Shown in pieces: positions 11,420 to 37,501 of a stretch of 40,587 nt of DNA. The position numbers were made by a program, and so were the translations under genes. This DNA is from SAR324 cluster bacterium (lineage in GTDB: Bacteria > SAR324 > XYD2-FULL-50-16). The stretch is from positions 1 through 40,587 of the forward strand of contig JANQLH010000122.1 of the NCBI GenBank assembly GCA_028280735.1. Reading direction: 5' to 3'. The notes beneath the pieces are model-generated. The model did not search any database, was not told the origin of the DNA, and saw only the letters and a program-made list of their open reading frames with translations. Positions within the stretch are counted from its first letter, which is position 1, and each line of letters opens with the position of its first letter.

Positions 11420-13891
11420 TCAATCCACCGGGCATGATTCAACATTCCAGATATCTTCCGCATACTGCTGAATAGTCCTGTCTGTCGAGAATTTCCCCAT
11501 TCCGGCAACGTTTAACACAGCTGTTTTATGCCACTGCACCTGGTTTTTGAATAGTTCAGAAACCCTGGCCTGGCAAGATACATATGCGGCATAGTCTGCC
11601 AATACAAAATAAGGTGCCGATTGAACCAGAAGGTTGTCATAAATCGAATGAAAGAGTGTCGGATCATCGGGTGAGAAAAATCCGCTTTTAATCTGACTGA
11701 TAACCTTTGCCAAACTTGGATTTTGCTCGACGTATTCTGAAGGCGAATAGCCTTTGTTCCGGATCTCTATCAGTTCTTCGGCCGTGTGACCAAAAATAAA
11801 GATGTTCTCCTCACCAACCTCCTCAAGGATTTCGATATTGGCTCCATCCAAGGTACCTATAGTTAATGCTCCGTTCAGCGCAAATTTCATATTCCCTGTC
11901 CCGGAGGCTTCCATACCTGCAGTGGAAATCTGTTCCGAGAGATCAGTTCCCGGAATAATCAGCTCGGCTTGGGAAACCCCATAATTGGGAAGAAATACGA
12001 CCTTTAACAGGTCTGAAATGCTACGATCTCGGTTAACCAGGTTGGCAACAGCGTTAATCAGATGAATAATCTTTTTGGCGGTTTGATACCCCGGTGCTGC
12101 CTTTCCCCCAAAAATTACCGTCCTGGGAACAAAACCTTCCTGATCACCCGATTTGATTTGGTTGTATAGAGTAATAACATGTAAAACATTTAACAACTGC
12201 CTTTTGTACTCGTGTATTCGTTTTACCTGAACATCGAAAATGGAATCCGGATTGACATCAACGTGACAACGTCTTTTAATCTCCTGTGCCAAAGCCAGTT
12301 TGTTTGCACGTTTTATTCGACTCCAGTCATGGATAAACTCTTCATCATGAACAACGTCTTCCAGCTTCTTCAACTGGTTCAGATTCTTAATCCAACCATC
12401 CCCGATTTTATCGGAAATAAGGTTCGCCATGGACGGATTGGCCTTCCTTACCCATCGTCGCGGTGTAACACCATTGGTTTTGTTGTTAAACTTTTCGGGA
12501 AACAGTTCATAGAATTCTTTAAAAATCCCCTGTTTCAAAAGGCTGGAATGCAACTCTGCGACCCCATTCACAGAGAAGCTACCGACTATAGCCAAATGAG
12601 CCATCCGGACATTTTGCGGTTCACCTTCTTCAATAATGGACATACGACTTCGGCGTTCAAACTCTCCAGGAAAGATTGCCGCTACAAGATCCAGAAAACG
12701 TTGATTGATTTCAAAAATTATTTGCAAATGACGCGGTAAGACTTTTTCTACCAGGGGTACGGGCCATTTCTCAAGGGCTTCCGGCAGCACCGTATGGTTT
12801 GTGTAGGCAAATGTTCGCGTCGTGATATCCCAGGCCTGATCCCAATCCATTTTCGCTTCATCCAACAAAATTCTCATTAATTCCGGAATGGCAATGGAAG
12901 GGTGCGTATCATTTAGCTGAATGGCTGCTTTCTCTGGCAATTCGCTGATTTCATTTCCACATTTAACCAGCCTGAACAATATGTCCTGTAAAGAGGCAGA
13001 CACCATGAAGTATTGCTGTTTTAGACGCAGCTCCTTTCCTTCATAATTGTTGTCATTGGGATAAAGTACCTTGGAAATGGTTTCCGATTGTGCCTTGTTA
13101 AAAATAGCTCCTACGTAATCCCCGGCGTTAAATGTCTCCAAGTTGAATTCACGTGTTGATGAAGCTGTCCATAATTTAAGCGTGTTAACCGTGTTGGTTC
13201 GATAGCCCGGAATTAGTATGTCATAGGCTAAGGCTATTACCTGCTCTGTATCCACCCATTCACAATGTTGAACATTGTTGCGATCCAGGTAGTTATTTAT
13301 TCTCCCCATAAAATGCACCCTATAGTGATTCGCGGTCCTGCCAATCTCCCAGGGGTTGCCGTAGCGAAGCCAGTTATCCGGATATTCCTGCTGTTGCAGC
13401 TTTTCAATTTTTTGCCGAAACATACCAAACTCGTAACGAATTCCATAGCCGTACGCCGGTAGTTCCAATGTTGCCATGGAATCCAAAAAGCAAGCCGCGA
13501 GTCTTCCCAGGCCTCCGTTGCCCAATCCTGCATCCCATTCTATTTTTGCCAGTTCTTCCATGGAGATGCTTAATCGATCCAGCGATTGTTTGACTGAATC
13601 CTCCAAATCAAGATTTATCAAGGCGTTTCCCAAGGTTCGACCAATAAGAAATTCCAGTGAAAGGTAATAGATGCGTTTGGGGTTTTTCTCGTAATATGTT
13701 TTTTGTGTTTTTAGCCATTTCGCGATTAGCTCGTCGCGAACGGCAAAGGCCAGGGCACGATATTGATCCAGCTTGCTGGTATATGAGAGATCCTGGCCTA
13801 TGGAAAGAGCCAGTCTTTGTTCGAAGGATTCTTTAAAGCGTTCAATTCTTTCTTCATTCGATGTGAGATGATTTTGAGTGAGGTTTTCCAT
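11420..13891 (-). CDS. glgP: Glycogen/starch alpha-glucan phosphorylase (downstream copy)
   Basis: An 823-aa GT35 enzyme that releases glucose-1-phosphate from alpha-1,4-glucans using PLP. Visible family blocks are LEFLIGRTLGNALINL (about 79-94), the glycine-rich WDAGLGNGGLGRLAACFLDS (about 119-138), AIQLNDTHPSIAIPELMR, DVQVKRIHEYKRQLLN and the PLP site EASGTGNMKFALNG with Lys669. Length is normal. The gene starts 6 bp after the stop of a second phosphorylase gene that shares the same order of motifs and the same distance from the PLP lysine to the end (apart from a short tail). The pair is thus a tandem duplication transcribed together. No obvious ribosome binding site precedes the ATG, which suggests coupling to the upstream copy. 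Confidence 0.96.
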   Translation of the reverse strand: MENLTQNHLTSNEERIERFKESFEQRLALSIGQDLSYTSKLDQYRALAFAVRDELIAKWLKTQKTYYEKNPKRIYYLSLEFLIGRTLGNALINLDLEDSVKQSLDRLSISMEELAKIEWDAGLGNGGLGRLAACFLDSMATLELPAYGYGIRYEFGMFRQKIEKLQQQEYPDNWLRYGNPWEIGRTANHYRVHFMGRINNYLDRNNVQHCEWVDTEQVIALAYDILIPGYRTNTVNTLKLWTASSTREFNLETFNAGDYVGAIFNKAQSETISKVLYPNDNNYEGKELRLKQQYFMVSASLQDILFRLVKCGNEISELPEKAAIQLNDTHPSIAIPELMRILLDEAKMDWDQAWDITTRTFAYTNHTVLPEALEKWPVPLVEKVLPRHLQIIFEINQRFLDLVAAIFPGEFERRSRMSIIEEGEPQNVRMAHLAIVGSFSVNGVAELHSSLLKQGIFKEFYELFPEKFNNKTNGVTPRRWVRKANPSMANLISDKIGDGWIKNLNQLKKLEDVVHDEEFIHDWSRIKRANKLALAQEIKRRCHVDVNPDSIFDVQVKRIHEYKRQLLNVLHVITLYNQIKSGDQEGFVPRTVIFGGKAAPGYQTAKKIIHLINAVANLVNRDRSISDLLKVVFLPNYGVSQAELIIPGTDLSEQISTAGMEASGTGNMKFALNGALTIGTLDGANIEILEEVGEENIFIFGHTAEELIEIRNKGYSPSEYVEQNPSLAKVISQIKSGFFSPDDPTLFHSIYDNLLVQSAPYFVLADYAAYVSCQARVSELFKNQVQWHKTAVLNVAGMGKFSTDRTIQQYAEDIWNVESCPVD

Positions 13892-13897
13892 ATAGTA

Positions 13898-16387
13898 TCA
13901 TTTGTGTTCAAAAGAATTCAAAACCGGACAGGGATCCACATTCCAAATTTCATTTGCATATTGACGAATAACACGATCAGAAGAAAATTTTCCCATACGG
14001 GCGACATTAAGCACTGCCCTTTTATGCCATTTTTCCTGATCCTTGTAGAGATCTGAGACGGCTTTTTGACAATCCACATAGGATCTGTAATCAGCCAGAT
14101 TATAATAATGGTCCCCTTGATGAACCAACGAATTAAACAGATTGCAAAACAGGTTCGGATCGGATGATGAAAACACGCCATCACGGATCTGATTCAACAC
14201 CCTCTGAAGTTCCCGGTCCTGATCATAATATAACTTAGGATCGTAACCTTGCAGCCTCATTTGAGATATCTGCTCCTCGGTTTTGCCGAAAATAAAGATA
14301 TTGTCTTTTCCAACCTCTTCCATGATTTCGATGTTCGCGCCATCCAAGGTGCCTATGGTCAGCGCTCCGTTGAGTGAAAACTTCATATTGCCGGTGCCGG
14401 ATGCTTCCATTCCGGCGGTTGAGATCTGTTCCGAAAGGTCAGCTCCCGGAAATATCTTTTCTGCCAGGGAAACGCCGTAATTAGGCAAAAACACCACTTT
14501 TAGCCTGCCTTCTATTGTCGGATCGCGGTTGATAAGGCCGGCGACAAGGTTAATCAGATGGATGATTTCTTTCGCCCTTTGATATCCGGGAGCGGCCTTG
14601 CCGGCGAATATAACGGTCCTGGGCACTTCGTTTTCAGCCTGCCCGTCTTTGATCCTGTTGTAAAAGGTTATGACGTGCAACAAATTTAACAATTGGCGTT
14701 TATACTCATGAATGCGTTTTACCTGAACATCAAAGAGGGTGTCAGGATCAGTTTCAATACCGCACAATTGTTTGATGACGCGACATAATCTTCGTTTGTT
14801 GTTTATTTTAACCTGTTTCCAGGCATCCACAAAAGCACTATCGTTGGAGAAGGATTCCAATTTCTTTAACTCACTAAGATCTTTGATCCAATTGGTTCCG
14901 ATTGATTCGGTAATCAGATTGGAAAGGCCAGGATTTGCTTTTTTCAGCCAACGACGAGGAGTCACACCATTCGTTTTGTTATTGAACTTTCCCGCTTGCA
15001 TTTCATAAAAGTCCTTGAAAATACCGTTTTTCAGGAGCCGAGAATGAAGCTCCGCCACCCCGTTTACTGAAAAGCTGCCAACAATTGCCAGAAATGACAT
15101 TCTCACAAATTTCGTTTCACCCTCCTCAATGAACGACATGCGCTGTCTTCTATTCAAATCACCGGGAAACGCAACATTAACCTCATCCAAAAAGCGCTGA
15201 TTGATTTCATAGATAATTTGCATATGGCGCGGCAAGACTTTTTCCATTAGTGACACGGGCCATTTTTCAAGAGCCTCCGGCAAGACGGTGTGATTGGTAT
15301 AGGCAAAGGTTCGGGTTGTTATACTCCAAGCGTCTTCCCAGGTATAATTATTAAGGTCGACTAATATGCGCATCAATTCGGGTATGGCAATTGCGGGATG
15401 GGTATCATTTAGTTGAATAACCACCTTGTCCGGCAGATTATCAAATGGATCTCCACATCGTTCCAATCGCATCAGGATGTTTCGTAAGGAAGCTGAAACC
15501 ATGAAATATTGCTGTTTAAGACGCAGTTCCTTCCCCTGGTAGGAGGTATCATTTGGATAAAGCACCTTGGAGAGAATTTCCGATTGATGTTTGTCTACAA
15601 TCGCACCGATGTAATCTCCAACATTGAAGCTTTCCAGGTCAAACTCACGGGACGATGCTGCGGCCCACAGTTTCAGGGAATTAACCGTATTGGTCCGATA
15701 CCCCGGAATCGGGACATCGTAAGCCAATGCAACAACGTTTTCCGTATCCAGCCAACGATTTTTCAGGATTCCCTTTCCATCAAAATAGCTGTGTACCCGA
15801 CCATAAAATTGCACTATTTCTATGTCCTCGGCACGGATAAACTCCCAGGGATAACCATATCTCAACCAATTATCCGGATTTTCCTTTTGTTGATTGTCAA
15901 CCATGGTTTGTTTAAACATTCCGTATTCGTAGCGAATACCAAATCCATATGCCGGCAGTTCAAGGGTCGCCATGGAATCCAGAAAACAGGCTGCCAACCT
16001 GCCTAATCCTCCGTTTCCGAGTCCTGCATCCCACTCAATTTCTTCCAGATTCTCATGTGAATATCCCAGATCTTCCAAGGCTTCCCGAACAACACCATCG
16101 ATATCCAGGTTCATTATTGCATTTCCCAGGGCTCTGCCCATAAGAAATTCCAGTGAGAAATAATAAACTCGCTTGGGATTTTGCCGGTAATAGCTGTCCT
16201 GGGTAGCGATCCATTTGGTTATAACCTTGTCTCGTACCGCATAAGCCAGTGATTGATACTTGTCCAGCCTTGTCGAATTATCCAGATCATGTGCAATGGT
16301 TTGTTGCATGTGGCGTTTGAAAGCTTGTTTGAAGCTTTCCAAGCTGCTTTTGTCATTTTGATTTGTCTTAAGGTTTTCAGCTTCCAT
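13898..16387 (-). CDS. glgP: Glycogen/starch alpha-glucan phosphorylase (upstream copy)
   Basis: An 829-aa GT35 phosphorylase, paralogue of the downstream neighbour. It has LEFLMGRALGNAIMNLDI, the WDAGLGNGGLGRLAACFLDS block, VIQLNDTHPAIAIPELMR, DVQVKRIHEYKRQLLN and the PLP lysine in EASGTGNMKFSLNG (Lys669). A GTG at 16414 would add nine residues. I prefer ATG 16387 because GGAGAG lies just upstream and because MEAENLKTNQ then lines up with the paralogue's start MENLTQNHL. It is the first gene of the pair, opposite the response-regulator gene across a 328-base region. Two copies may differ in regulation or in preferred glucan length (inference). Confidence 0.96.
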   Translation of the reverse strand: MEAENLKTNQNDKSSLESFKQAFKRHMQQTIAHDLDNSTRLDKYQSLAYAVRDKVITKWIATQDSYYRQNPKRVYYFSLEFLMGRALGNAIMNLDIDGVVREALEDLGYSHENLEEIEWDAGLGNGGLGRLAACFLDSMATLELPAYGFGIRYEYGMFKQTMVDNQQKENPDNWLRYGYPWEFIRAEDIEIVQFYGRVHSYFDGKGILKNRWLDTENVVALAYDVPIPGYRTNTVNSLKLWAAASSREFDLESFNVGDYIGAIVDKHQSEILSKVLYPNDTSYQGKELRLKQQYFMVSASLRNILMRLERCGDPFDNLPDKVVIQLNDTHPAIAIPELMRILVDLNNYTWEDAWSITTRTFAYTNHTVLPEALEKWPVSLMEKVLPRHMQIIYEINQRFLDEVNVAFPGDLNRRQRMSFIEEGETKFVRMSFLAIVGSFSVNGVAELHSRLLKNGIFKDFYEMQAGKFNNKTNGVTPRRWLKKANPGLSNLITESIGTNWIKDLSELKKLESFSNDSAFVDAWKQVKINNKRRLCRVIKQLCGIETDPDTLFDVQVKRIHEYKRQLLNLLHVITFYNRIKDGQAENEVPRTVIFAGKAAPGYQRAKEIIHLINLVAGLINRDPTIEGRLKVVFLPNYGVSLAEKIFPGADLSEQISTAGMEASGTGNMKFSLNGALTIGTLDGANIEIMEEVGKDNIFIFGKTEEQISQMRLQGYDPKLYYDQDRELQRVLNQIRDGVFSSSDPNLFCNLFNSLVHQGDHYYNLADYRSYVDCQKAVSDLYKDQEKWHKRAVLNVARMGKFSSDRVIRQYANEIWNVDPCPVLNSFEHK

Positions 16388-16715
16388 GGCTCTCCGGAGG
16401 ACATCTTCAAACACAATTCTTGGGGATTGTTGGAATAAAAATCACTCCCTTAGTTTATTAGAGAGGGCTTTAATTTACAAGTAATTCCGAAAATCGAATC
16501 GAGCTAATCCACGACTTTGATCATTCAGGTTTGCCTTGTCTCAGCCCAATAAGTTACTTGTCATATAATGTATCTATTTATTATCTTATGGATCTATTTA
16601 GTTTTATGTGGTAACTTGTTACAAATGTTCTTAGATTTCAATTTATAATTGATTGTCGGTTCATAAATTCCGCCAACAATTATTTTAATTATTTGAGATT
16701 GATAGGTTCAAGACT
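16388..16715. other. AT-rich divergent control region between glgP pair and response regulator
   Basis: About 330 bases without a gene. It holds a TATAAT at 16564-16569 on the + strand without a well-spaced -35. Two identical 9-mers, ATCTATTTA at 16572-16580 and 16592-16600, lie exactly 20 bases apart (two helical turns), an arrangement typical of tandem regulator sites. Nothing else is recognised. Confidence 0.4.
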
Positions 16716-26021: not shown

Positions 26022-27650
26022 ATGGTTATAAAAAGACGATTCAGTGTTCTATTGGCAATTGTTTTGATGACATCGTTTTCAAATAAACTGGTTTACGGTA
26101 TTGATGCCGACAATATTGCCATTATGCAACAACTTCAACAGGAAGAACCGGAGCTGTTTGAGCGTGTTGAACTGGTAACGGAAAATAATAGGGATCTTTT
26201 GAAAGTCACCCTGAGTGATGTGTTACTAATGGTCTTAAAACGCAGCAACACTATCGAAGCTCAGCGTTTGGGAGAAAAGGCAGCCCGATCCGGTGTTGAA
26301 GCCTCAAGGGCTATCTACCAGACTAGTTTGGAAACGTCGGCAACCCAGAGCAAGACTGCCGGACTATCATCTACTGACTTGGATGACAATGACCCTCCCA
26401 GTGCAACATCCTATTTAGCGACAACTTCCACCGATGCAACCGCATTATCTGCCACAGTCAGCAAAAAAACCTCCTTGGGAATTTCATTCTCTTCCACGCT
26501 ATCTTCATCAAAATCACAGACTGACCGTTTTAGTATGGAAGAAAAAGGGGATGATTTAACAAAGACCGGAACGGGTGAAGAAGTGGATTCCTCCTCTCTC
26601 AGCGCAACCGTTTCCATTCCCCTCTTTCAGGATTGGGGAGAGATTAACGATCTGCCTATCAAGAGAAGCCGGATTCTGCTGGATCAAGCCAAGACTACCA
26701 CTTATTCCACCGGTGTTGGTCTGCTGGAATCCGTTGCCAATGAGTATTGGAATTTAGTCGGAGTACAGGAGAATATCAAGACGTTGAAGGAAGCAGTAAA
26801 CCTTTCAGAAAAACTGGTGAGGGAGACCAGGGCGAGAGTGCAGGTTGGAGTGTTGAATCCGACCGATCTGAAAGAAACCCAGACTCAACTGGCCAATAAT
26901 CGAAAAGACTTACTGACAAAACAAATTGAAGAACAGGAAACAGAGGATAAAATCAGAGTAGCCCTTGATTTAGGGACAATTCCCTTCGGTTTTAAACCAG
27001 CCGATCTGCCGAGAATTCACGGAGAGGACTTTGATTTTCAGGAACTACTGAAAAAGGCTTATGAGAACAGCACTGATTTAAAGACATTGATGTTAAGTCT
27101 GACATCAAATCAATACGATCTGGACGATGCCTACAACGATGACAAAACAAACCTGGATCTTAGCTTAACCTACACACTAAACGGTTATGGCGACTCACCT
27201 TCCGAAACCACCCAGTACTATGCCAATGATGAGTACCAAGGCTATTCCGCGAAATTAACCTGGAGTGTTCCGTTGTTTGACGATTCCGCCTCGGAAGCAA
27301 TTATGCAACGGAAGATCGAACGCAACAAACTTGAGTTACAGGTTAAGGATGCCAAGGCAGAAATTTATGTCACCCTGCAGACAATCCTCAGAAATCTCAA
27401 ATTCGGAATTGAAGAAGAGAAAGCGGCCCAGTTGTCCGTAAACCTGGCAAAGGATCTGTTGGATAAGGAAGTGGAAAAATTAAAAATTGGAAAAAGTACC
27501 AGTTTTAATGTCTCCCAGGCTCAAAAGAACTATACCGAAGCAAAACTCGGTGAAACTCTCGTCAAGGTGGGAAATGAGAGGAATTTTGTTAAGTTGTTGG
27601 TCTTAACGGGAGATATTTTTTCCTATTACAAGCTGCCAAAATCCATATAA
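26022..27650 (+). CDS. TolC-family outer-membrane efflux protein
   Basis: A 542-aa outer-membrane channel subunit. A signal peptide covers about 1-26 (FSVLLAIVLMTSF, then VYG). The mature part has the two long TolC-type helical repeats: the first around 65-330, with long coiled-coil stretches near SVANEYWNLVG and KETQTQLANNRKDL, and the second around 340-530, ending with KDLLDKEVEKLKIGKST and the FNVSQAQKNYTEAK helix that is typical of the family. Beta-strand segments (about 95-200) are Ser/Thr-rich. AGGG lies just before the ATG. It is the first gene of a three-gene export operon with the adaptor and RND pump. Confidence 0.92.
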   Translation: MVIKRRFSVLLAIVLMTSFSNKLVYGIDADNIAIMQQLQQEEPELFERVELVTENNRDLLKVTLSDVLLMVLKRSNTIEAQRLGEKAARSGVEASRAIYQTSLETSATQSKTAGLSSTDLDDNDPPSATSYLATTSTDATALSATVSKKTSLGISFSSTLSSSKSQTDRFSMEEKGDDLTKTGTGEEVDSSSLSATVSIPLFQDWGEINDLPIKRSRILLDQAKTTTYSTGVGLLESVANEYWNLVGVQENIKTLKEAVNLSEKLVRETRARVQVGVLNPTDLKETQTQLANNRKDLLTKQIEEQETEDKIRVALDLGTIPFGFKPADLPRIHGEDFDFQELLKKAYENSTDLKTLMLSLTSNQYDLDDAYNDDKTNLDLSLTYTLNGYGDSPSETTQYYANDEYQGYSAKLTWSVPLFDDSASEAIMQRKIERNKLELQVKDAKAEIYVTLQTILRNLKFGIEEEKAAQLSVNLAKDLLDKEVEKLKIGKSTSFNVSQAQKNYTEAKLGETLVKVGNERNFVKLLVLTGDIFSYYKLPKSI

Positions 27651-27724
27651 CATAATAATAAGGCGTATCAAGCAGGCAGAAACGGCTTCAATCCCGTCCT
27701 GGTAATAATTAAGAGGGTATTTCT

Positions 27725-29095
27725 ATGTCTGAAAAACGAAAAAAGCTACAACGCATACTGTTCTTAACCGTCCCGGTAGTGTTCGGGATTCTGATTTTCA
27801 TGGTACTGCTTAAGGTCAAACCGAACCCACCCCATAAGGAACAGATCGACAATAAACGCAAGGTACGTATTATAGAGGCAGAGAAGACCGATGTGATTCC
27901 AATAGCCTTAGGATATGGTACAGCGAGGCCGACAAACGTATGGCAAGCGGTAGCCGAAGTTAGTGGAAAAGCTATTTATGTAAGTCCCTCTTTAAAAAAA
28001 GGGAGCCGAATATCCAAAGGAACATTGCTGGTAGAGATAGATCCCACTGAATATAAACTGACCGTTGCGGAAGCGAAAACCAATCTGCAAAGCATTGATG
28101 CCCAAGTTAAACAATCAATAGACAAGGAGATCAGTAACAAGGAGCTGCTGAAACTTGAGTTGAATACACTGGATCTCAAACAGAAGGAGCTTGACCGACA
28201 GAAAAAATTACTGGGCAACAATATTGCCAGTAAGTCTGATTTCGAGCAGGCTGAAGCGGCTTTTCTCGCTCAAAAATATAAGGTACAAACCATTCAAAAC
28301 ACCTTGAACTCCCTGGGTTCGGAACGTGAGTTGTTAAAAGCACAGGAGGAGCAGGCAAAACTTTCACAGCAATCCGCAAACTTACAATTACAATATACAA
28401 AAATCAGGGCTCCGTTTGACAGTATTGTATCAAACGTTAATGTAGAGAAGCTGCAGTTTGTACAAAAGGGACAGAATATTGCCGAAGCCGAAGGTGTTGA
28501 TTCTATTGAGATTGAAGCCCAACTGGCAAACGGGCTTTATGTGTTCCGTCCTGAAGCGAATGAAGAAGCGCGTTCTCGTCTGATAGAAGGTAACGGATCT
28601 GTCGGCGATGCGCTGGGAATAACTGCTATAGTCAGGTTTAATTTCGGCAAGATATCGTCGGAGTGGAAGGGAAATGTAATGAGATTTAATGCCCAGATCG
28701 ATACCAAAACCAGAACCCCGGGGGTCATCGTGCAGGTGGATGATCCTTTCGGTCTTAAATTGGAAACACCCAAGAGACCGCTGATCAAGGGCATGTATTG
28801 CGAAGTTGAGTTTTACGGCAGGCCTTTTAAAAACATCATAATAATTCCCAGAACAGCCCTCCACAATAAGAACACCGTTTATGTTGCAGATGAAAATAAC
28901 AGACTTCGAATTCGCAGAGTTAAGACAGGCTTTACCCAGGACAGCTTCACCATGATTCGAGAGGGATTGGAACCGGGTGAAAAAATTATTGTTACTGATG
29001 TTATACCCGCAGTGGAAGGGATGAGTGTCATACCGATTTTAGATATTGAGCTGGCTTCGAAAATCAAGTCCGATGCGATGGGAGGTCGAAAATGA
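27725..29095 (+). CDS. RND efflux periplasmic adaptor (MFP/HlyD family)
   Basis: A 456-aa membrane fusion protein linking pump and outer-membrane channel. One N-terminal helix (about 12-30) acts as signal anchor. Then comes the first lipoyl half (about 70-110, SPSLKKGSRISKGTLLVEIDP), a long helical hairpin (about 110-220, Lys/Glu/Gln-rich), the second lipoyl half (LQLQYTKIRAPFDSIVSNVNV, near 220-240), a beta-barrel (about 255-370) and a membrane-proximal domain ending VTDVIPAVEGM. No lipobox Cys is visible. It lies 74 bp after tolC and overlaps the pump gene by 4 bp (ATGA), so the two are translationally coupled. Confidence 0.93.
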   Translation: MSEKRKKLQRILFLTVPVVFGILIFMVLLKVKPNPPHKEQIDNKRKVRIIEAEKTDVIPIALGYGTARPTNVWQAVAEVSGKAIYVSPSLKKGSRISKGTLLVEIDPTEYKLTVAEAKTNLQSIDAQVKQSIDKEISNKELLKLELNTLDLKQKELDRQKKLLGNNIASKSDFEQAEAAFLAQKYKVQTIQNTLNSLGSERELLKAQEEQAKLSQQSANLQLQYTKIRAPFDSIVSNVNVEKLQFVQKGQNIAEAEGVDSIEIEAQLANGLYVFRPEANEEARSRLIEGNGSVGDALGITAIVRFNFGKISSEWKGNVMRFNAQIDTKTRTPGVIVQVDDPFGLKLETPKRPLIKGMYCEVEFYGRPFKNIIIIPRTALHNKNTVYVADENNRLRIRRVKTGFTQDSFTMIREGLEPGEKIIVTDVIPAVEGMSVIPILDIELASKIKSDAMGGRK

Positions 29096-32000
29096 TACGT
29101 TTTTTTTCCACACATCCCACGGCTGCAAATTTGTTGATGCTGATTATAATTGTAACCGGCTTTATTGGGTTACCTGCCTTAAAAAGGGACACCTTTCCGG
29201 AATTTGAAGCCAATAAAGTAAGGGTCAGCGTCAGTTATACGGGAGCTTCAGCTGAAGAGATGGAAGAAGCGGTTGGCCAGCCCATCGAAGATGCCCTGAG
29301 CAGTATCAACTATGTCCAGGAAATCGTAGCTGAATCGAAAGAAGGTATTACGAATGTGACTGTGGAGATGAAGGAAGAGGGAGACCTTGCTGAATTTTAC
29401 AATGATATTCGAACAGAAGTGGAAGCAATAGACAACTTCCCTGAAGACGCAAATGATCCGGTTATTACGGAAATGGGCAGAACAAGTCATGTGGTCGCCA
29501 TCGCTGTTTCCGGTCCCATGTCGGTTCAACACCTAAAAGAGTATTGCGAATATTTAAAACGAAAGCTAAAACAACACCCGAACATTTCCATTGTTGAAAT
29601 CAGCGGATTTTCAGACAGACAAATTCAAATAAAGGTTCAAGCCAATAAGCTGTTGCAATACGGCATCAGTATCACTGACATTGCCAATACTATCGCTAAT
29701 CAAAGTCTGGATACACCGGTTGGTTCCATCGATTCAAGTGATCAGGAAATGCTGATTCGCTTCGCTGACAAACGAAGAGAGGTTCAGGAATTTGAAAACA
29801 TTGTAATTATTGGCGGAAGTACCGGGGCTGAAATAAAACTGGGTGAAATTGCAACCATCACCGATGCTTTTGAATTGGAAGAAAGCAAAATTGAATTTAA
29901 CGGTGAAAGGGCAGCTTATATCTCCATTGTCAAATCCAAGGCTGAAGATGCGTTAACTATCTACGATGCCGTGACGGAGTTTGTTGAACGCGAAGAGCAG
30001 TTAGCACCGGATGGAGTTTCGCTGACACTCACCAACGATATGGCATCACTGATTCGCGATCGATTGGGCCTGGTAGCGAAAAACGGTTGGCAGGGATTGA
30101 TGCTGGTTTTTATAGCCATGTTCATCTTCTTCAACTTTCGGACAGCCTTTTGGGTGGTTGTTGGTCTTCCCATTTCTTTTATGGGAGCATTTTTCCTGAT
30201 GTATCAAATTGGATACACATTAAATATGATGACCAGCCTGGCTTTATTGCTTTCCATTGGAATACTAATGGATGATGCCATCGTGATCGCAGAAAACATT
30301 GCTGTACAATTGAAAAAAGGGAACAACGCGATAGAAGCAGCCATCATCGGCACCAAACAGGTGCAAAACGGGGTTATAGCTTCCTTTTTGACAACCGCCT
30401 GTGTATTTTTGCCTTTGTCGTTTATTGAAGGACAAATCGGTAAGGTACTGCTTGTTGTTCCGGTGGTATTGCTATTTGTTCTGGCTGTCAGTTTGCTGGA
30501 AGCGTTTTTTATCCTTCCGCATCATTTGGGACACTCATTCAAAGGCAAGGAAAACATTTCGGAGGGCAAATTCAGAAGCAAGGTTTCGGCATGCATTGAG
30601 TTCGCCCGGGAAAAGGTCCTGGGTCGGGTTGTTGATAGCGCTGTAAATCGTCGTTATCTTACCGTGGGATTGGTTTTCATGTTTCTTATCATATCATTTG
30701 CAATGCTGGCCGGCGGACAGTTAAAATTCATCGGATTTCCCAGTGTTGAAGGTGACGTTATCGAAGCGAAAATACTCTTACCGCAAGGTTCCCCGCTAAC
30801 CAAAACAGAATCTGTCGTAAAGTCGGTCATCGAAGGACTTGATACCGTTGACAAAGAGCTGACTCCAATGCAGGAAGACGGAAAAAAGCTGGTGCTGAAT
30901 ACCAGGGTTTCCTATGGGAAAAACATGGATTCCAATGAGTCGGGACCGCACCTTGCTACTGTTGCCGTCGATTTGCTGGAAAATGAATATCGCCTGCACA
31001 CCACCACCGACATCATTTCCCATTGGAGAGAGGAAGTAGGTACCATTGCAGATGTCATAACAATCAACTATGGAGAGAGCGGCCTGGGACCAGCAGGTAA
31101 AGCCATAAAAATACAGTTTCAGGCAGATAGTCTTGAGGTCCTAAAGCAGTCGTCCCTTGAGTTGATGGAATGGCTGGAGCAGTTCGATGGCGTATATAAC
31201 GTTTACGATGACATGAGACCCGGAAAACCGGAATTAGTCATGAAGTTAAAACAAGGTGCTACCATCCTGGGTGTTACGGCGAATTCAATCGCCGGCCAAA
31301 TCAGATCTGCCTTTCTTGGTAGAACGGTTAATGAGATTCAAGTTGGTCAGGAATCCTATGAAGTGTCAGTTCAACTGGCTGATGAAGACAAGGATAATTT
31401 GAGAGATCTGGAATCCTTTCGTGTTTACAGTGCCGATGGAACCGGTATTCCTGTGACAAGCGTTGTTGAATTCGAAAATAAAAGAGGTTACGCCAGAATT
31501 TTACGAATTGATGGTATGCGGACATTGACCCTGGAAGGAGATGTAAACTTGTCCATAACCAATACCAGTGAAGTCATCAACAAAATCAGAACTGATTTCA
31601 TCCCTGAGTTCAACAAACGTCATCCGGACGTTCTGGTTAGGATTCGTGGTGAGGCCGAAAGGACTTCAAAGACCTCCGGATCGATGGTGATGTTATTCCT
31701 GATTGGAATTGTCGGTGTCTATGTTCTGCTCAGTTACCAGTTCAAAAGTTACAGTGAACCCCTGGTTGTAATGGTGGCGATTCCCTTTGCCTTGATCGGT
31801 GTGATATGGGGCCATTTGTTGATGGGGATCTCATTGTCCCTTCCGAGCATATTGGGATTTATTTCGCTTTCGGGGATTGTTGTAAACGATTCGATCCTTT
31901 TAGTGGAATTCGTAAAATTTCGCAGAGCGGAGGGGAAAAGTGCCGTGGAAGCGGCAAAACTGGCAAGTAGAGAGCGATTTAGGGCAGTGTTGCTGACAAC

Positions 32001-32208
32001 CATCACAACTGTTGCCGGTTTAATGCCGCTACTGTCAGAAACGAGTCTGCAGGCACAAGTGTTGATTCCTATTGCCGTAAGTATTTCATTCGGCTTAATG
32101 GCCTCTACACTGATGATTCTTATCGTCATCCCCTGTTTTTATTCCATTGCGGATGACTTCGGATTAACCGCACCCATTGAAAAGCAGCCGACCGAATTGG
32201 TTACCTAG
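29092..32208 (+). CDS. RND-family (AcrB-like) inner-membrane efflux permease
   Basis: A 1038-aa proton-driven pump of the HAE/AcrB class. The start RFFSTHPTAANLLMLIIIVTG is the first membrane helix. The proton-relay aspartates of TM4 are present in GILMDDAIVIAENI (about 393-394). Family blocks include ASAEEMEEAVGQPIEDAL, the second-half helices near 865-1020 with GIVVNDSILLVEF, and two large periplasmic loops. The sequence is closer to the uncharacterised HAE-type branch found in many marine and sediment bacteria than to AcrB itself. The drug or lipid substrate cannot be told. It is the last gene of the operon and is followed by a strong terminator-like hairpin. Confidence 0.94.
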   Translation: MIRFFSTHPTAANLLMLIIIVTGFIGLPALKRDTFPEFEANKVRVSVSYTGASAEEMEEAVGQPIEDALSSINYVQEIVAESKEGITNVTVEMKEEGDLAEFYNDIRTEVEAIDNFPEDANDPVITEMGRTSHVVAIAVSGPMSVQHLKEYCEYLKRKLKQHPNISIVEISGFSDRQIQIKVQANKLLQYGISITDIANTIANQSLDTPVGSIDSSDQEMLIRFADKRREVQEFENIVIIGGSTGAEIKLGEIATITDAFELEESKIEFNGERAAYISIVKSKAEDALTIYDAVTEFVEREEQLAPDGVSLTLTNDMASLIRDRLGLVAKNGWQGLMLVFIAMFIFFNFRTAFWVVVGLPISFMGAFFLMYQIGYTLNMMTSLALLLSIGILMDDAIVIAENIAVQLKKGNNAIEAAIIGTKQVQNGVIASFLTTACVFLPLSFIEGQIGKVLLVVPVVLLFVLAVSLLEAFFILPHHLGHSFKGKENISEGKFRSKVSACIEFAREKVLGRVVDSAVNRRYLTVGLVFMFLIISFAMLAGGQLKFIGFPSVEGDVIEAKILLPQGSPLTKTESVVKSVIEGLDTVDKELTPMQEDGKKLVLNTRVSYGKNMDSNESGPHLATVAVDLLENEYRLHTTTDIISHWREEVGTIADVITINYGESGLGPAGKAIKIQFQADSLEVLKQSSLELMEWLEQFDGVYNVYDDMRPGKPELVMKLKQGATILGVTANSIAGQIRSAFLGRTVNEIQVGQESYEVSVQLADEDKDNLRDLESFRVYSADGTGIPVTSVVEFENKRGYARILRIDGMRTLTLEGDVNLSITNTSEVINKIRTDFIPEFNKRHPDVLVRIRGEAERTSKTSGSMVMLFLIGIVGVYVLLSYQFKSYSEPLVVMVAIPFALIGVIWGHLLMGISLSLPSILGFISLSGIVVNDSILLVEFVKFRRAEGKSAVEAAKLASRERFRAVLLTTITTVAGLMPLLSETSLQAQVLIPIAVSISFGLMASTLMILIVIPCFYSIADDFGLTAPIEKQPTELVT

Positions 32209-32219
32209 GATTGCCCCAA

Positions 32220-32290
32220 GAGAGTGAAGCGACCTACTACCCCAAAAGTCATCATTGCCGGGTCGCTTCGCTCTCGTCTTTTCTATTTTT
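32220..32290 (+). terminator. Long-loop hairpin terminator after the efflux operon, REP-like
   Basis: GAGAGTGAAGCGACC (32220-32234) pairs with GGTCGCTTCGCTCTC (32261-32275): 15 bp with one G-U wobble around a 26-base loop, followed by a T-rich run (32276-32290). It lies 11 bases after the pump stop codon, so it can serve as a terminator. Its arms and the ATTGCC in the loop resemble the dispersed GTCATTGCGAG...GAAGCGA type of intergenic palindrome, so it may be a repeat that was co-opted (from memory, not searched). Confidence 0.6.
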
Positions 32291-32402: not shown

Positions 32403-35400
32403 ATGCAATTCCTGACCTATGAACAAAAAAAATATATAGTTTTAGCCCGAGCAACTCCCGGGAATTGCGGATACGTGGATATTTTTAAAAAAACCCCAAA
32501 CGGATCTTACGAACACTATTGGTCTTTAATGCCGGAGCCGGGATACCCCATCATCTCTTTGGCGCAAGCAATTAATGACAAAAAGCTTTATATCGTTAAT
32601 AAAACAGGCGAATTTAGGCTCTATAACCTCAAGGAGAAAAAGGAGATTGCCAGTGCCAAAATAGGGGCGAGTAGCTTGTTTGGTGCAGGAATTTACCCTT
32701 CCCAATCAAAAGGATACATTGTCACTAAAAATCTGGAATCAAACGGCATCGATATATTTGAGATTTGCCTTGATTCATTGAAAGCATCTTTCGTACAGAC
32801 TATTCGGGGAGTTTTTCAAATTGATCATATTACTGTTCTGGATGAAAACCAATTAGCGGGTTACATACCGATTGGCTCTGTGGAAGGTCTTAAGTCATCT
32901 GATGGCTTTTTGATTATCAATACCCAAGAGCAAACTCACAAACTGAATTATCTAAGACCTTCTCCAAGCGGGTTATTCCCGAAACCTCCGGTTGCATTTG
33001 ACCCGAGAACAAAAACAGGAATTCGCCCTTCATACGATCCTATTGAAATAATAGAAAGTGATACTGATAAAAAGTATCTTGCCAAGGTGTTATTGTTTGA
33101 TCTCAACAGTGGTAAAAGAATCGATACCATCGTTGTCAGGGAGTTTACAGCTTCCGAGATGTTTGAAGATGATGATCCGAAATTTGCGTTATCATGCCTT
33201 GAACTCCCCACTTATTCGGATGATTATCGAGATATTAAAGAGGAGTTTCTGGAAAGGTTTGAAGCTCTGCAATATTGTCACTTGGAGGATGCTTTCTGGG
33301 TCACCTTTCAACATGGTTTTTTGAGGAAGGTTTATCTGGATGGAAAAAGGCTGTCCCCTTTGATTGCACATCCCGGTGATTCCATTTTGGCCGACCGTCC
33401 GACGCTGTCACATACCAATTTTGATACACCGCTGCGGTTAAGCCCGGATGACCGCTTTCTGGCCTTCGGGCAACCTGAAATCTGTTTTGCGACAAAAATC
33501 CTGGTAAATGCCCCGCCAGACAATGTCTTTTTGATCACAGGTGAACAGGTTGTTGAATCCGGTTGTGAAACAAGTTCACTAAACACCGAAACTTTCAGTT
33601 GGATCAATCTTGATTTAACGGGCAGCAGCAAGAGGAGTTCAGATCTAGACTTTTTGGATTTACTGCTCAAAAAGACAAAAGACCTTGAAAATCTTAAGGA
33701 CGGACCTTTCCTACGATTCCAATTTGTCACCTCAAAGCGAACGGTGAAAGAAGAAGAGTTTGTTCAAAGCCTTTCCTGGAACAACGAGCAGATAGATACA
33801 GCCGGAGAAATAATCTCTTTATACAATTCCAAAGGTCAAGGGCTTTGGTATGATGATTCCACCCCTTCGTTTTTTTATTTATTGAGAAGATTGGTGTTGG
33901 AGAGCACTGATGCCCTTGGACTGTTTATAGAATACCTGCGGCTTTATGGTGACTGCAAAGAGGATAGTGACCGACTGGCTGAACTGGTTGACGATATCAT
34001 CAACAAAATGGGTTGGTGCAGGGAAAGCGTTGACATGATTTTGACCAGGGCTTACTTTCAACCCGAACGTGGGCTTGAGCAGTTGGAATATTATCTAAAG
34101 CAACCCGACTTTGAACTATATCTCGGCAAATTTGATAACAGGAATTATTTTAGAAATCACACTCTTTACAAAACTCTGGTTGAAGACTATTTCTCACTGT
34201 TTTTTCCCAACGAAGATCAACTGTTTTCTGCCATTGAAGCAGAGGATAACGGGAAGGTGGAGTCTCTTTTAAGGTTGCCCTTGGAGCTTAATGAAATTCA
34301 TCCAGAATACAAGCTAAATCCGCTTGATACAGCCATTGAAACCGGAAACCAACAGATTATTAGTTTATTAAGAGAAGCCGGGGCAAAATCCCTGAACTTT
34401 GGAACGGAGCGTAAATCCGGTGAGAACGGCACCACAATCGATCAGGACATTTCTGTTGATAAGGCAATGCGAACCTTGTTGTCGAATCTTCATCGTCAAC
34501 AGGAGACCATCCAAAAAGAGATTTATGACATACAATTCAGTCATATGTTAAATTTCTCCTTATCTGAAGAACAATCTGCATTGCTTGAGAGTAAAAACAA
34601 AGAATTGAAAGATATTCAATCCCAGATTAAATATGCCAACCTGGGATTGATCTCACTTGAAGATATTTCAGAATCCGACGAATTTACCGACATATCATTG
34701 GATCATCAACAAAACCTATCGGAAGGAGCAGACAGTTTTGATTCGAGTAAGAGCCACGTATATGCTGATCCGGCCTCGACTGTCATTGAAATCGAGGATC
34801 TGAAGGAAAACTCCCAGGTATCTGCTTTTAAGAAAATGAAGTCATTGTTACATGACTCGGAGAGCATTATTTTTAATCGAATTCTCAGATTTAACTATAG
34901 GGTTGCGAAAAACTTCATTTCTGAAAAACTATTTTTTGAAAAGATTCAACTGACAACCGACTCAGCCCGGGTACCGTCAGACCTTATCCGCTCCCTTTCA
35001 GGTTCTGTTCGCCAACCCGTCTGGTATGAGGACGAGTTTCCAGCTATGTTTTTCGCACTGCAAAAGCTGGTAATGTATCATGAGCGATACCTTAAAGATT
35101 TAGATCTCTATCTGAAAAGTGACATTATAGGGAAAGAGGAACCTGTCTGTGTTACCGAGTTCATTTTTGATGTTTATGAGCACTATGGGTGGAATTTAAT
35201 CACTCTTTCACTTGCGGTTTCCAGGCTTAGCCAGGAATCAAACAGGAATGGATTAGCCGAGTTTAGAATTCAATGGAAAAAAGGTGGTTTGGAAAGTTAT
35301 ATTCGACAACCTGAAATCAAAGAAGAATTTATTCGTCTACTAGATATGTATTGCGGTGAGGATAGAATTGAATGGTTCTATCAATTTATAAAAAAAGGAG

Positions 35401-35405
35401 AATAA
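32403..35405 (+). CDS. Large multi-domain protein of unrecognised family: propeller-like N-terminus, duplicated WY module, ankyrin repeats, coiled coil
   Basis: A 1000-aa protein with no signal peptide and no membrane helix, so probably cytoplasmic. Residues about 1-400 read as repeated beta-strand blades (for example YIVLARATPGNCGYVDIF, KLYIVNKTGEFRLYNLKEKK), as in a beta-propeller. Residues 437-580 and 828-980 are two copies of one helical module: each starts with LRF, has WY[DE]D-x2-3-P-x-x-FF about 45 residues later (W482 and W874), and continues to a GW about 55 residues further. Between them lie two ankyrin-like repeats (605-663, ending NPLDTAIETGNQQIISLL) and an acidic, coiled-coil-prone linker (685-755). 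ATG 32403 has GGGGA eight bases upstream; GTG 32388 would add five residues. It precedes exbB by 152 bp. No function is assigned. Confidence 0.85.
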   Translation: MQFLTYEQKKYIVLARATPGNCGYVDIFKKTPNGSYEHYWSLMPEPGYPIISLAQAINDKKLYIVNKTGEFRLYNLKEKKEIASAKIGASSLFGAGIYPSQSKGYIVTKNLESNGIDIFEICLDSLKASFVQTIRGVFQIDHITVLDENQLAGYIPIGSVEGLKSSDGFLIINTQEQTHKLNYLRPSPSGLFPKPPVAFDPRTKTGIRPSYDPIEIIESDTDKKYLAKVLLFDLNSGKRIDTIVVREFTASEMFEDDDPKFALSCLELPTYSDDYRDIKEEFLERFEALQYCHLEDAFWVTFQHGFLRKVYLDGKRLSPLIAHPGDSILADRPTLSHTNFDTPLRLSPDDRFLAFGQPEICFATKILVNAPPDNVFLITGEQVVESGCETSSLNTETFSWINLDLTGSSKRSSDLDFLDLLLKKTKDLENLKDGPFLRFQFVTSKRTVKEEEFVQSLSWNNEQIDTAGEIISLYNSKGQGLWYDDSTPSFFYLLRRLVLESTDALGLFIEYLRLYGDCKEDSDRLAELVDDIINKMGWCRESVDMILTRAYFQPERGLEQLEYYLKQPDFELYLGKFDNRNYFRNHTLYKTLVEDYFSLFFPNEDQLFSAIEAEDNGKVESLLRLPLELNEIHPEYKLNPLDTAIETGNQQIISLLREAGAKSLNFGTERKSGENGTTIDQDISVDKAMRTLLSNLHRQQETIQKEIYDIQFSHMLNFSLSEEQSALLESKNKELKDIQSQIKYANLGLISLEDISESDEFTDISLDHQQNLSEGADSFDSSKSHVYADPASTVIEIEDLKENSQVSAFKKMKSLLHDSESIIFNRILRFNYRVAKNFISEKLFFEKIQLTTDSARVPSDLIRSLSGSVRQPVWYEDEFPAMFFALQKLVMYHERYLKDLDLYLKSDIIGKEEPVCVTEFIFDVYEHYGWNLITLSLAVSRLSQESNRNGLAEFRIQWKKGGLESYIRQPEIKEEFIRLLDMYCGEDRIEWFYQFIKKGE

Positions 35406-35580
35406 AGATCCGTGGTATCGGTCTCCATTAGAAAGACTGTTTTTTGAAATTTTTGAATCAGCTCATTTACAAGTCCGGACTAACCTTTTACCCCATATTA
35501 AAAGCACACCAAGCTTATCCAATCTTATTCAACATTTAATCCGATTACATATATCCAATGACAACATCTATACCTCCTGA
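35389..35580 (+). other. Open +1 frame continuing the large protein past its stop codon
   Basis: In the +1 frame relative to the large protein, the DNA from 35389 is open for 63 codons to a TGA at 35578-35580, overlapping the exbB start. From 35404 it reads KDPWYRSPLERLFF and then an amphipathic helical stretch ending LIQHLIRLHISND. There is no start codon at its head, so it is not an independent gene. It begins with a WY...P...FF pattern like the modules of the large protein. The junction carries a seven-A run (35390-35396) six bases before the TAA. Explanations are a sequencing or assembly error, a real disabling indel, or programmed frameshifting. Confidence 0.45.
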
Positions 35581-36220
35581 ACCTGTCCAATTGCAGCTGC
35601 TTGATCAGGTTCAGGTTATCTTCTCAAAAGGTGGTATCATGATGATTCCGCTTGCAGCTTGTTCTTTTATTGTACTTTTGGTGATTATTGAACGACTGCT
35701 GGTTTTGAGATCCGGCAGATTGACCTCTCTGAAGGCCATGGCAGCCTGGGATACCTGGTTTGCAAATAATCTTGATGAGGACAAGAAACCCAAACCGGTT
35801 TTAAGCTCCGTTCCGGTATCGATCTTAAGCTCACTGGTGGATTATTTTCCTTTGAGCCGCTCCAGATTGGAAGAAAGAATCACAGACTTGGGAAGAATGG
35901 AGAAACACAGATTAGAAAGAGGATTGGTCTTTTTAGATACCATAGCGGGCATCGCCCCTTTGTTTGGGTTGTTGGGAACCGCTCTCGGCATGGTTGAGGT
36001 GTTTTCAAGGCTTTCTGTGGCGGGAGAGGCGAAAATGAGTGCTCTTTCTTCGGGAATATCACAAGCGTTGTTTACAACTGTCACCGGCTTATGTATTGGA
36101 ATTCCGGCATTGATAGCCTTTAATCTGTTTTCCCGTCATATTGAGAAGATCCTGATCCAGACTGAAGATCAGATCAACCGTTTTATTGACCGTCATGCTC
36201 CCAAAATCATTAAAGAATAA
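35558..36220 (+). CDS. exbB: MotA/TolQ/ExbB proton channel protein
   Basis: A 220-aa inner-membrane protein with three helices: about 23-48 (GGIMMIPLAACSFIVLLVII), about 125-150 (LDTIAGIAPLFGLLGTALGM) and about 168-192 (ALFTTVTGLCIGIPALIAF). The last two are the diagnostic ExbB/TolQ segment with conserved Pro, Gly and Thr residues lining the proton path. The cytoplasmic loop is charged. With the next two genes it forms a TonB-type energy-transducing set (exbB - exbD - tonB, spaced 14 bp and overlapping 14 bp). TolQ cannot be excluded, but no tolA, tolB or pal is present. No good ribosome binding site is seen. Confidence 0.9.
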   Translation: MTTSIPPEPVQLQLLDQVQVIFSKGGIMMIPLAACSFIVLLVIIERLLVLRSGRLTSLKAMAAWDTWFANNLDEDKKPKPVLSSVPVSILSSLVDYFPLSRSRLEERITDLGRMEKHRLERGLVFLDTIAGIAPLFGLLGTALGMVEVFSRLSVAGEAKMSALSSGISQALFTTVTGLCIGIPALIAFNLFSRHIEKILIQTEDQINRFIDRHAPKIIKE

Positions 36221-36234
36221 CCAATCAACCTTTC

Positions 36235-36636
36235 ATGAAGCTATTTAACACCACAAAGCGGAAAACCGGTATCAATTTGACTGCCCTGGTTGATGTGCTG
36301 TTTTTGTTGATAATCTTTTTTTCGGTTTCTACAAGGTTTACCAACCAGCAAGCCATTCAAGTGGATCTGCCCCAGACTGAAAATTCAAACACCATTTCGA
36401 CTACTGAAAAGTTGATCATTATTATGCGTGATGAAAATGAGGTTTTTATTAACGGTGCATTATTCAATTGGAAGGTTGTAAATTCGGAAATTGAAAAATC
36501 CAAATATGACAGAACACAAAGAGTCATACTCAATATCGATAAAAAGATTACCCACGGCAAAGTAGTAGGGCTTCTCGATTTGCTTAAGACCCATCAATAC
36601 AAAACAGTAGTCTTTGGTACTTATGGCGATTCGTAA
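36235..36636 (+). CDS. exbD: ExbD/TolR biopolymer transport protein
   Basis: A 133-aa protein with a short basic cytoplasmic N-terminus (KLFNTTKRKTGIN), one membrane helix (about 15-32) and a periplasmic domain. The essential helix aspartate is Asp20 in LTALVDVLFLLIIFF. The periplasmic part has the ExbD pattern VDLPQTENS, then LIIIMRDENEVFINGALF and the end of the fold ILNIDKKITHGKVVGLLDLLK. It works with ExbB to convert the proton gradient into movement of TonB. It starts 14 bp after exbB and its end overlaps the tonB-like gene by 14 bp. Confidence 0.92.
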   Translation: MKLFNTTKRKTGINLTALVDVLFLLIIFFSVSTRFTNQQAIQVDLPQTENSNTISTTEKLIIIMRDENEVFINGALFNWKVVNSEIEKSKYDRTQRVILNIDKKITHGKVVGLLDLLKTHQYKTVVFGTYGDS

Positions 36637-37501
36637 CCACACTTTTTTCCTGACAGCACTACTACTGACTACACTTATCCATCTGCTTACCATAGGTCCG
36701 CTTTCCCAATGGCTAAACAGGGAGATCCTCCCTGCTTTATCTGATGAAAGCATGATCATTGATCTTTCAGAAATCAAGGATCAAAAAAACAATGCCGTTG
36801 ATCAACCGATTATTGAGGACCGAAGTCATGAAAAATCCAATCCGCTTTTAGAAGAGAAACCTCAATCGAAGAAGAACCGCCTTCACATCCCCCGTACTAA
36901 AAAACACCTTGACCCCACATTAAGCGAAGATAAAATAGCTTCAAACGAACATAATCCTCCCCAAAAAACTATTCCAGCGAAACCGCCTGAGACAACGCAA
37001 CAAGAAACCAACACATCACAGTCTCCATTGTTTATCCGCAAACCTGAATTAAAACCCGAGATTCCGACAGAGCAGGCCAAGGAAAAAGCCATTCCGGATG
37101 AAATAAAAGATACCTTCAGGGACGGCAAGCCGGAAAAAACCGACGATGAAAACATGGAGTATTCCATGAACTCTTATAAATGGACATTTAATCGCTATAT
37201 TGGCAACTGGGCGGTTGATATTCGAAGATGGTGGAAAGCGCCATTGGATTACGCAATGGGAAATGTTCCGGAAGGAGGAGATTTGTGGATCACCGTTAGA
37301 ATCGCTAAATCCGGGAGAATGGAGGGATACACGGTTAAAGGTTCGAATGTTACGGCAGAAATGGAATGGAGAGTGATCCAGGCATTGATTGGTTCTTTTG
37401 ACAGACCTCCGTTACCTGAATCATTTCCCGAAGAATCATTGCTGATCAACTGGCGGTTCATCTACCCTCCAGTTCGACCACAACTAAGAATGCGAAGATA
37501 G
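36623..37501 (+). CDS. TonB-like energy-transducer protein
   Basis: A 292-aa protein with a cytoplasmic stub, one membrane helix (about 8-27, TFFLTALLLTTLIHLLTIG), a long flexible Pro/Lys/Glu-rich periplasmic linker (about 45-165) and a C-terminal domain (about 180-285) resembling the TonB fold (WITVRIAKSGRMEGYTVKGS, then FDRPPLPESFPEE and NWRFIYP). The linker is of TonB type rather than the helical TolA type. ATG 36623 lies inside exbD (14-bp overlap); TTG 36614 would add three residues and is less likely. No TonB-dependent receptor is in the window, so its client is unknown. It converges with the receiver at 37513, leaving 11 bases between the stop codons. Confidence 0.82.
   Translation: MAIRNHTFFLTALLLTTLIHLLTIGPLSQWLNREILPALSDESMIIDLSEIKDQKNNAVDQPIIEDRSHEKSNPLLEEKPQSKKNRLHIPRTKKHLDPTLSEDKIASNEHNPPQKTIPAKPPETTQQETNTSQSPLFIRKPELKPEIPTEQAKEKAIPDEIKDTFRDGKPEKTDDENMEYSMNSYKWTFNRYIGNWAVDIRRWWKAPLDYAMGNVPEGGDLWITVRIAKSGRMEGYTVKGSNVTAEMEWRVIQALIGSFDRPPLPESFPEESLLINWRFIYPPVRPQLRMRR

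Follow-up and report, generated by a model that had tools for sequence, protein, structure and literature searches.

The analyzed stretch of DNA (40,587 bp, hereafter the window) is a contig of a SAR324 cluster bacterium. The gene under study is located at 32403–35405 on the forward strand, and its reading frame is uninterrupted over 1000 residues counted from an ATG codon. A GTG codon lies 15 bp upstream of this ATG, but it is the ATG that aligns with the first methionine in all three full-length orthologues (L016, L017 and L018). The encoded protein is acidic (pI 4.9) with a maximum 19-residue hydropathy of 1.2, and neither a membrane segment nor a signal peptide-like start was found by hydropathy analysis in any of the four orthologues. 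Judging by sequence, the protein is most likely soluble and cytoplasmic. The earlier note on this DNA called it giant, which overstates a length of 1000 aa.

The gene is flanked by two groups of genes of the same orientation. The upstream group is an OEP / HlyD / RND operon (26022–32208, +), whose last gene (29092–32208, +) encodes an RND efflux pump of the AcrB family (Pfam ACR_tran, E 9e-169). The operon is closed by a terminator-like hairpin followed by a T-tract (32220–32290, +), with an RNA folding energy of -28.9 kcal/mol and a z-score of -6.3. Because this hairpin ends the upstream operon, the 1000-aa gene is probably a transcription unit of its own. A hairpin was also found at the equivalent place in L016 (z -2.9), which belongs to the same genus, and in a genome of this genus without the gene, G002 (z -5.8). 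The downstream group (35558–37501, +) consists of exbB, exbD and a probable TonB-like gene. ExbB/TolQ (35558–36220, +) was assigned by Pfam MotA_ExbB (E 6e-28) and ExbD/TolR, encoded 3' of exbB, by its Pfam match (E 8e-22); Pfam gave no match for the third protein, which is probably TonB-like by its position and sequence.

The position of the gene between the RND efflux gene and exbB is the same in the window and in L016. In G002 (locus L061), a third genome of the genus, the RND (73% identity) and ExbB (62%) genes are only 224 bp apart, and no copy of the gene was found either at this site or elsewhere in the assembly. This empty site fits gain and loss of the gene alike, and these genomes do not allow a choice between the two. 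In other genera the gene is located next to a peptidase gene or next to genes for MTHFR and a pseudouridine synthase. As the neighbours differ between genera, the partner of the protein is presumably not encoded beside it.

A search of related genomes revealed the three full-length orthologues within the same family, with 36, 32 and 27% identity. L016 originates from the MAG OS_PC_MetaG.mb.69, while L017 and L018 originate from MAGs titled Deltaproteobacteria bacterium. A scan of 84,980 species genomes with the single protein gave no match, and a profile built from the four orthologues detected the same three loci only. The gene is present in four of the ten genomes of the family, including the window's own, and no orthologues outside the family were found among the 52 genomes of the class. 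Searches of plasmids and of viral contigs yielded no match. The module alignment proved too variable for a pattern search. One module match in genome G042 (E 0.007, 42 columns) was rejected, since it fell in a frame with a stop codon.

The most characteristic feature of the protein is a duplicated module. The earlier note had described two regions sharing the motifs LRF, WY[DE]D and GW, and these were found where it had placed them, at residues 437 and 828, 482 and 874, and 537 and 929, respectively. The combined LRF-WY-P-FF-GW pattern covers residues 437–538 and 828–930 and was matched in none of 20,000 shuffles of the protein. The motif string as a whole is present in both modules, but the spacing after WY[DE]D had to be corrected from P-x-x-FF to P-x(1-2)-FF; moreover, both the P and the FF vary within the family. 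Only five positions are invariant across the eight module copies of the four orthologues, namely the R and F of LRF, the E of SE-x-x-FF, the L of LV and the Y of YL. They are mostly hydrophobic or structural, and no catalytic-looking set is recognizable among them. The module length of about 150 residues was an underestimate: each copy comprises about 190–205 residues, beginning with a helix about 20 residues ahead of LRF and extending 55–65 residues beyond GW. Module 1 (33615–34202, +; from residue ~405/411 to 600) was delimited with hhalign and an eight-row structural model; it consists of a helix and an LRF beta-hairpin followed by alpha-helices bearing WYDD and GW. Module 2 (34779–35402, +; residues 793 to ~998/1000) is a diverged second copy with WYED, GW and an invariant KKGGL.

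Single-sequence BLASTP of the protein against itself did not report this internal repeat, so reading the sequence by eye had revealed more than a plain search does. Profile–profile comparison with hhalign, using a profile of the four orthologues, aligned residues 418–600 with residues 808–985 over 164 columns with a probability of 99.8%, an E-value of 3e-29 and a score of 179.6. The alignment was in register, and the score for 100 column-shuffled versions was at most 30.5. The propeller and ankyrin segments of the protein, used as controls, gave no match. The full-length AlphaFold2 model was made without aligning the two modules to one another, and in it 166 of the 193 aligned residues (86%) share their secondary-structure state; agreement drops to 73% when one segment is shifted by two residues, and larger shifts bring it down to about 48%. 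The order of helices and strands is equal in both segments, with no sign of the different folds that would have spoken against the repeat. A tree of the eight copies placed all first modules in one clade and all second modules in another (support 99/98), which indicates an ancient duplication that predates the split of these genera. The two modules are thus confirmed as homologous copies of one domain.

Modeling of the full-length protein with AlphaFold2 was based on a four-row alignment and led to a model with a pLDDT of 72.7 and a pTM of 0.43, in which the relative placement of the domains is unreliable. Module 1 modeled with the eight copies as its alignment reached a much better pLDDT of 85.8 and pTM of 0.82. 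Such an improvement is expected if the two copies are truly homologous, although the alignment itself presupposes homology. A Foldseek comparison of the module model with the PDB revealed nothing significant (best E 0.4), the TM-score normalized by the query being at most 0.36 among the matches listed, and no structural match was found among viral proteins. The nearest PDB folds are TPR and 14-3-3-like helical proteins, which have a mostly helical core in common with the module at this non-significant level; the module differs from them in its conserved LRF beta-hairpin and WY[DE]D loop. Pfam and NCBIfam contain no family for the module or the propeller at curated cut-offs, and a search of Pfam, NCBIfam, PHROGs and PDB sequence families covered the protein over the ankyrin stretch only. 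The suggestion that no family has this domain order therefore held in the profile searches, which did not place the protein in any known single-domain family, and nothing specific on a protein with this order was found in the literature. That the module is a protein–protein interaction unit, as proposed earlier, appears consistent with its all-helical core, its very few invariant polar residues and its context of ankyrin repeats and a propeller.

A profile search for the module in other genomes revealed one distant relative. Among 291 genomes of another phylum, a protein of 260 aa (L066:1315-2094, reverse strand) was detected with an E-value of 4e-9, calculated per one genome. It was matched over positions 7–181 of the 216 profile positions and keeps the N-terminal helix and, in unchanged order, the motifs E-x-x-FF, YHDE, LV and WG-x-C. 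Comparison of the module profile with this protein by hhalign gave a probability of 96%, an E-value of 2e-9 and a score of 64.9, against at most 19.5 in 100 shuffles. Profiles of module 1 only and of module 2 only each found it independently, with E-values of 1e-7 and 1e-4, respectively, against a set of 2000 shuffles. The L066 protein, which has no match in Pfam or NCBIfam, shares the module with the 1000-aa protein but contains it alone, as a single copy without the propeller, ankyrin repeats or coiled coil. This standalone copy was not part of the earlier note and is new here. Since it occurs in another phylum, the module is a portable and rare domain; searches of the phyla to which G054, G056 and G057 belong yielded no copy.

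Two further observations concern the standalone protein. Equal neighbours surround L077:1468-1974 in G392 and L075:9078-9860 in G391, two genomes of one genus, with a frame of 168 aa in the former and the 260-aa standalone module protein in the latter. The 168-aa frame retains only the first ~45 residues of the standalone protein, so the module core has been lost or replaced. In G555, a hit to the standalone protein lies inside an NTPase-TPR-like regulator of more than 1000 aa and was therefore rejected as a general helical-repeat match.

The N-terminal part of the 1000-aa protein (32403–33617, +; residues 1–405) was predicted with AlphaFold2 and Foldseek to be a WD40-like beta-propeller with a helical insert at residues 250–283. 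Its pLDDT in the full-length model is mostly 67–89 over residues 20–320, and the strand order suggests about seven blades. Foldseek matched it to WD40 propellers of the PDB with a TM-score to the target of 0.54–0.57. Sequence searches revealed no WD40 or other propeller family at curated cut-offs, and a weak match to the EMC1 propeller (E 0.001) was obtained for one orthologue only. The propeller-like N-terminus of the earlier note is therefore borne out by the predicted fold and not by sequence. The predicted fold is shared with WD40-type propellers such as G-beta, the ATG16L1 C-terminal domain and the UTP proteins of the small-subunit processome, but the propeller of this protein lacks a sequence family match and has the helical insert and its own invariant motifs FEDDDP, FQHG and HPGD, which adjoin the insert. 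The invariant polar residues of the propeller are R208, R246, E255, D256, E281, R285, H304, R308, H323, D326 and D341. In residues 206–347 (window 33018–33443), invariant charged residues and histidines are dense in the sequence, beyond what is expected of a plain binding propeller. The first 200 residues of the protein are poorly conserved.

Between the modules, two ankyrin-like repeats (34212–34406, +; residues 604–668) join onto the module 1 helices without a break. They had been noticed from the sequence and were confirmed here by comparing the four-orthologue profile with PDB ankyrin proteins (E 2.8e-11). Pfam Ank_2 matched two of the orthologues (best E 1e-5), while the window protein by itself gave no ankyrin match in Pfam. 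The only further matches of the orthologue profile in the class fall on this stretch. Like ankyrin repeat proteins, the protein contains ankyrin-like repeats, but only two of them, within 1000 aa and fused directly to the helices of another domain. The acidic coiled-coil linker of the earlier note corresponds in the model to two elements: a coiled-coil-like helical hairpin of low conservation (34437–34640, +; residues 679–746), with helices predicted by AlphaFold2 at 679–717 and 722–746, and after it a separate acidic linker (34641–34778, +; residues 747–792). The linker is probably disordered (pLDDT 23–35 over residues 751–790).

The best explanation of these features is that the protein is a soluble cytoplasmic scaffold or adaptor, a reading for which we consider the chances about even. 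Propeller and ankyrin folds are mostly protein-binding. Their presence in a soluble protein, together with a duplicated helical domain with few invariant polar residues, allows us to assume such a role, and a portable binding domain would be expected to occur on its own, as the module does. The conserved part of the propeller (blades 4–6 and the helical insert, with FEDDDP, FQHG and HPGD) would bind one partner, and the modules, spaced by the coiled coil and the flexible linker, would hold either two similar partners or a single partner in two copies; alternatively, the two modules might pair with each other. The protein would in this way bring its bound partners together. The structure models behind this proposal are based on four and eight sequences, and the unusually many invariant polar residues of the propeller count against it, since they could mean a ligand-binding or catalytic site. 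The main rival is accordingly a propeller acting as a ligand-binding or catalytic domain, like propeller hydrolases or lactonases, with the modules, the ankyrin pair and the coiled coil serving in regulation or oligomerization. The clustering of invariant charged residues and histidines at 206–347 in the sequence, against the poorly conserved first 200 residues, is what makes it so. However, no enzyme family was matched by sequence, and at the level of fold the best hits are binding propellers of the WD40 type and not enzymes, so we regard this alternative as rather unlikely.

The patchy presence of the gene even within the genus, its varied genomic sites, its fast divergence and its ankyrin repeats would also fit an accessory conflict gene, either for defence or encoding an ankyrin effector acting in another cell. 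This is improbable: no nuclease, NTPase, protease or secretion signal was found, defence genes do not adjoin it in the neighbourhoods scanned, and it was absent from the plasmids and viral contigs searched. The sole PADLOC match, to PDC-M72A (E 2.5e-5), was obtained for two orthologues and is suspected to be caused by the ankyrin stretch. In the window and in L016, the location of the gene between the RND operon and exbBD might suggest that its product belongs to the RND efflux or ExbBD-TonB machinery or regulates it, which we consider very unlikely. A link to efflux was rejected on the empty site of G002, where RND and ExbB occur without the gene, and on the unrelated neighbours in two other genera; together with the terminator-like hairpin that separates the gene from the RND gene, they leave the efflux context incidental as far as the evidence goes. 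Finally, membrane-coat-like (protocoatomer-type) proteins of Planctomycetes have an N-terminal propeller followed by stacked helix pairs (PMC2799638). The coarse order is alike, with a propeller predicted N-terminally and an alpha-helical part after it, and clathrin and IFT-A chains were among the Foldseek matches. Their global TM-scores were 0.08–0.20, however, too low for matches over the whole chain. No solenoid was matched significantly by the module, and no C-terminal alpha-solenoid was found: a duplicated unique domain, interrupted by the ankyrin pair, the coiled coil and the disordered linker, stands in place of a continuous stack of helix pairs. Nothing points to internal membranes or to a membrane role of the protein. 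A protein of this type is thus highly improbable here.

The scaffold or adaptor reading aside, the protein represents a lineage-restricted new architecture with an unnamed domain; on present evidence it is a solid new family and not a new kind of system. The domain family is small, comprising eight copies in four orthologues and one standalone relative, with no name and no solved structure, and the domain order was found in no library searched. A wider interpretation can be put forward only tentatively: the module would be a new domain family with a fold absent from solved structures. In one phylum it would stand alone; in another, its ancient tandem pair would be fused to the propeller and the ankyrin repeats to form a bacterial assembly platform of an undescribed kind. 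Until a partner or phenotype is found, the finding carries only limited biological weight. Being small, soluble and confidently modeled, the module offers a direct handle for determining its structure and binding partner, and the separately clading duplicate copies and the standalone homologue make this handle a clean one.

Another duplication was observed elsewhere in the window, where two adjacent carbohydrate (glycogen) phosphorylase genes on the reverse strand (11420–13891 and 13898–16414) are 65% identical and represent a tandem duplication.
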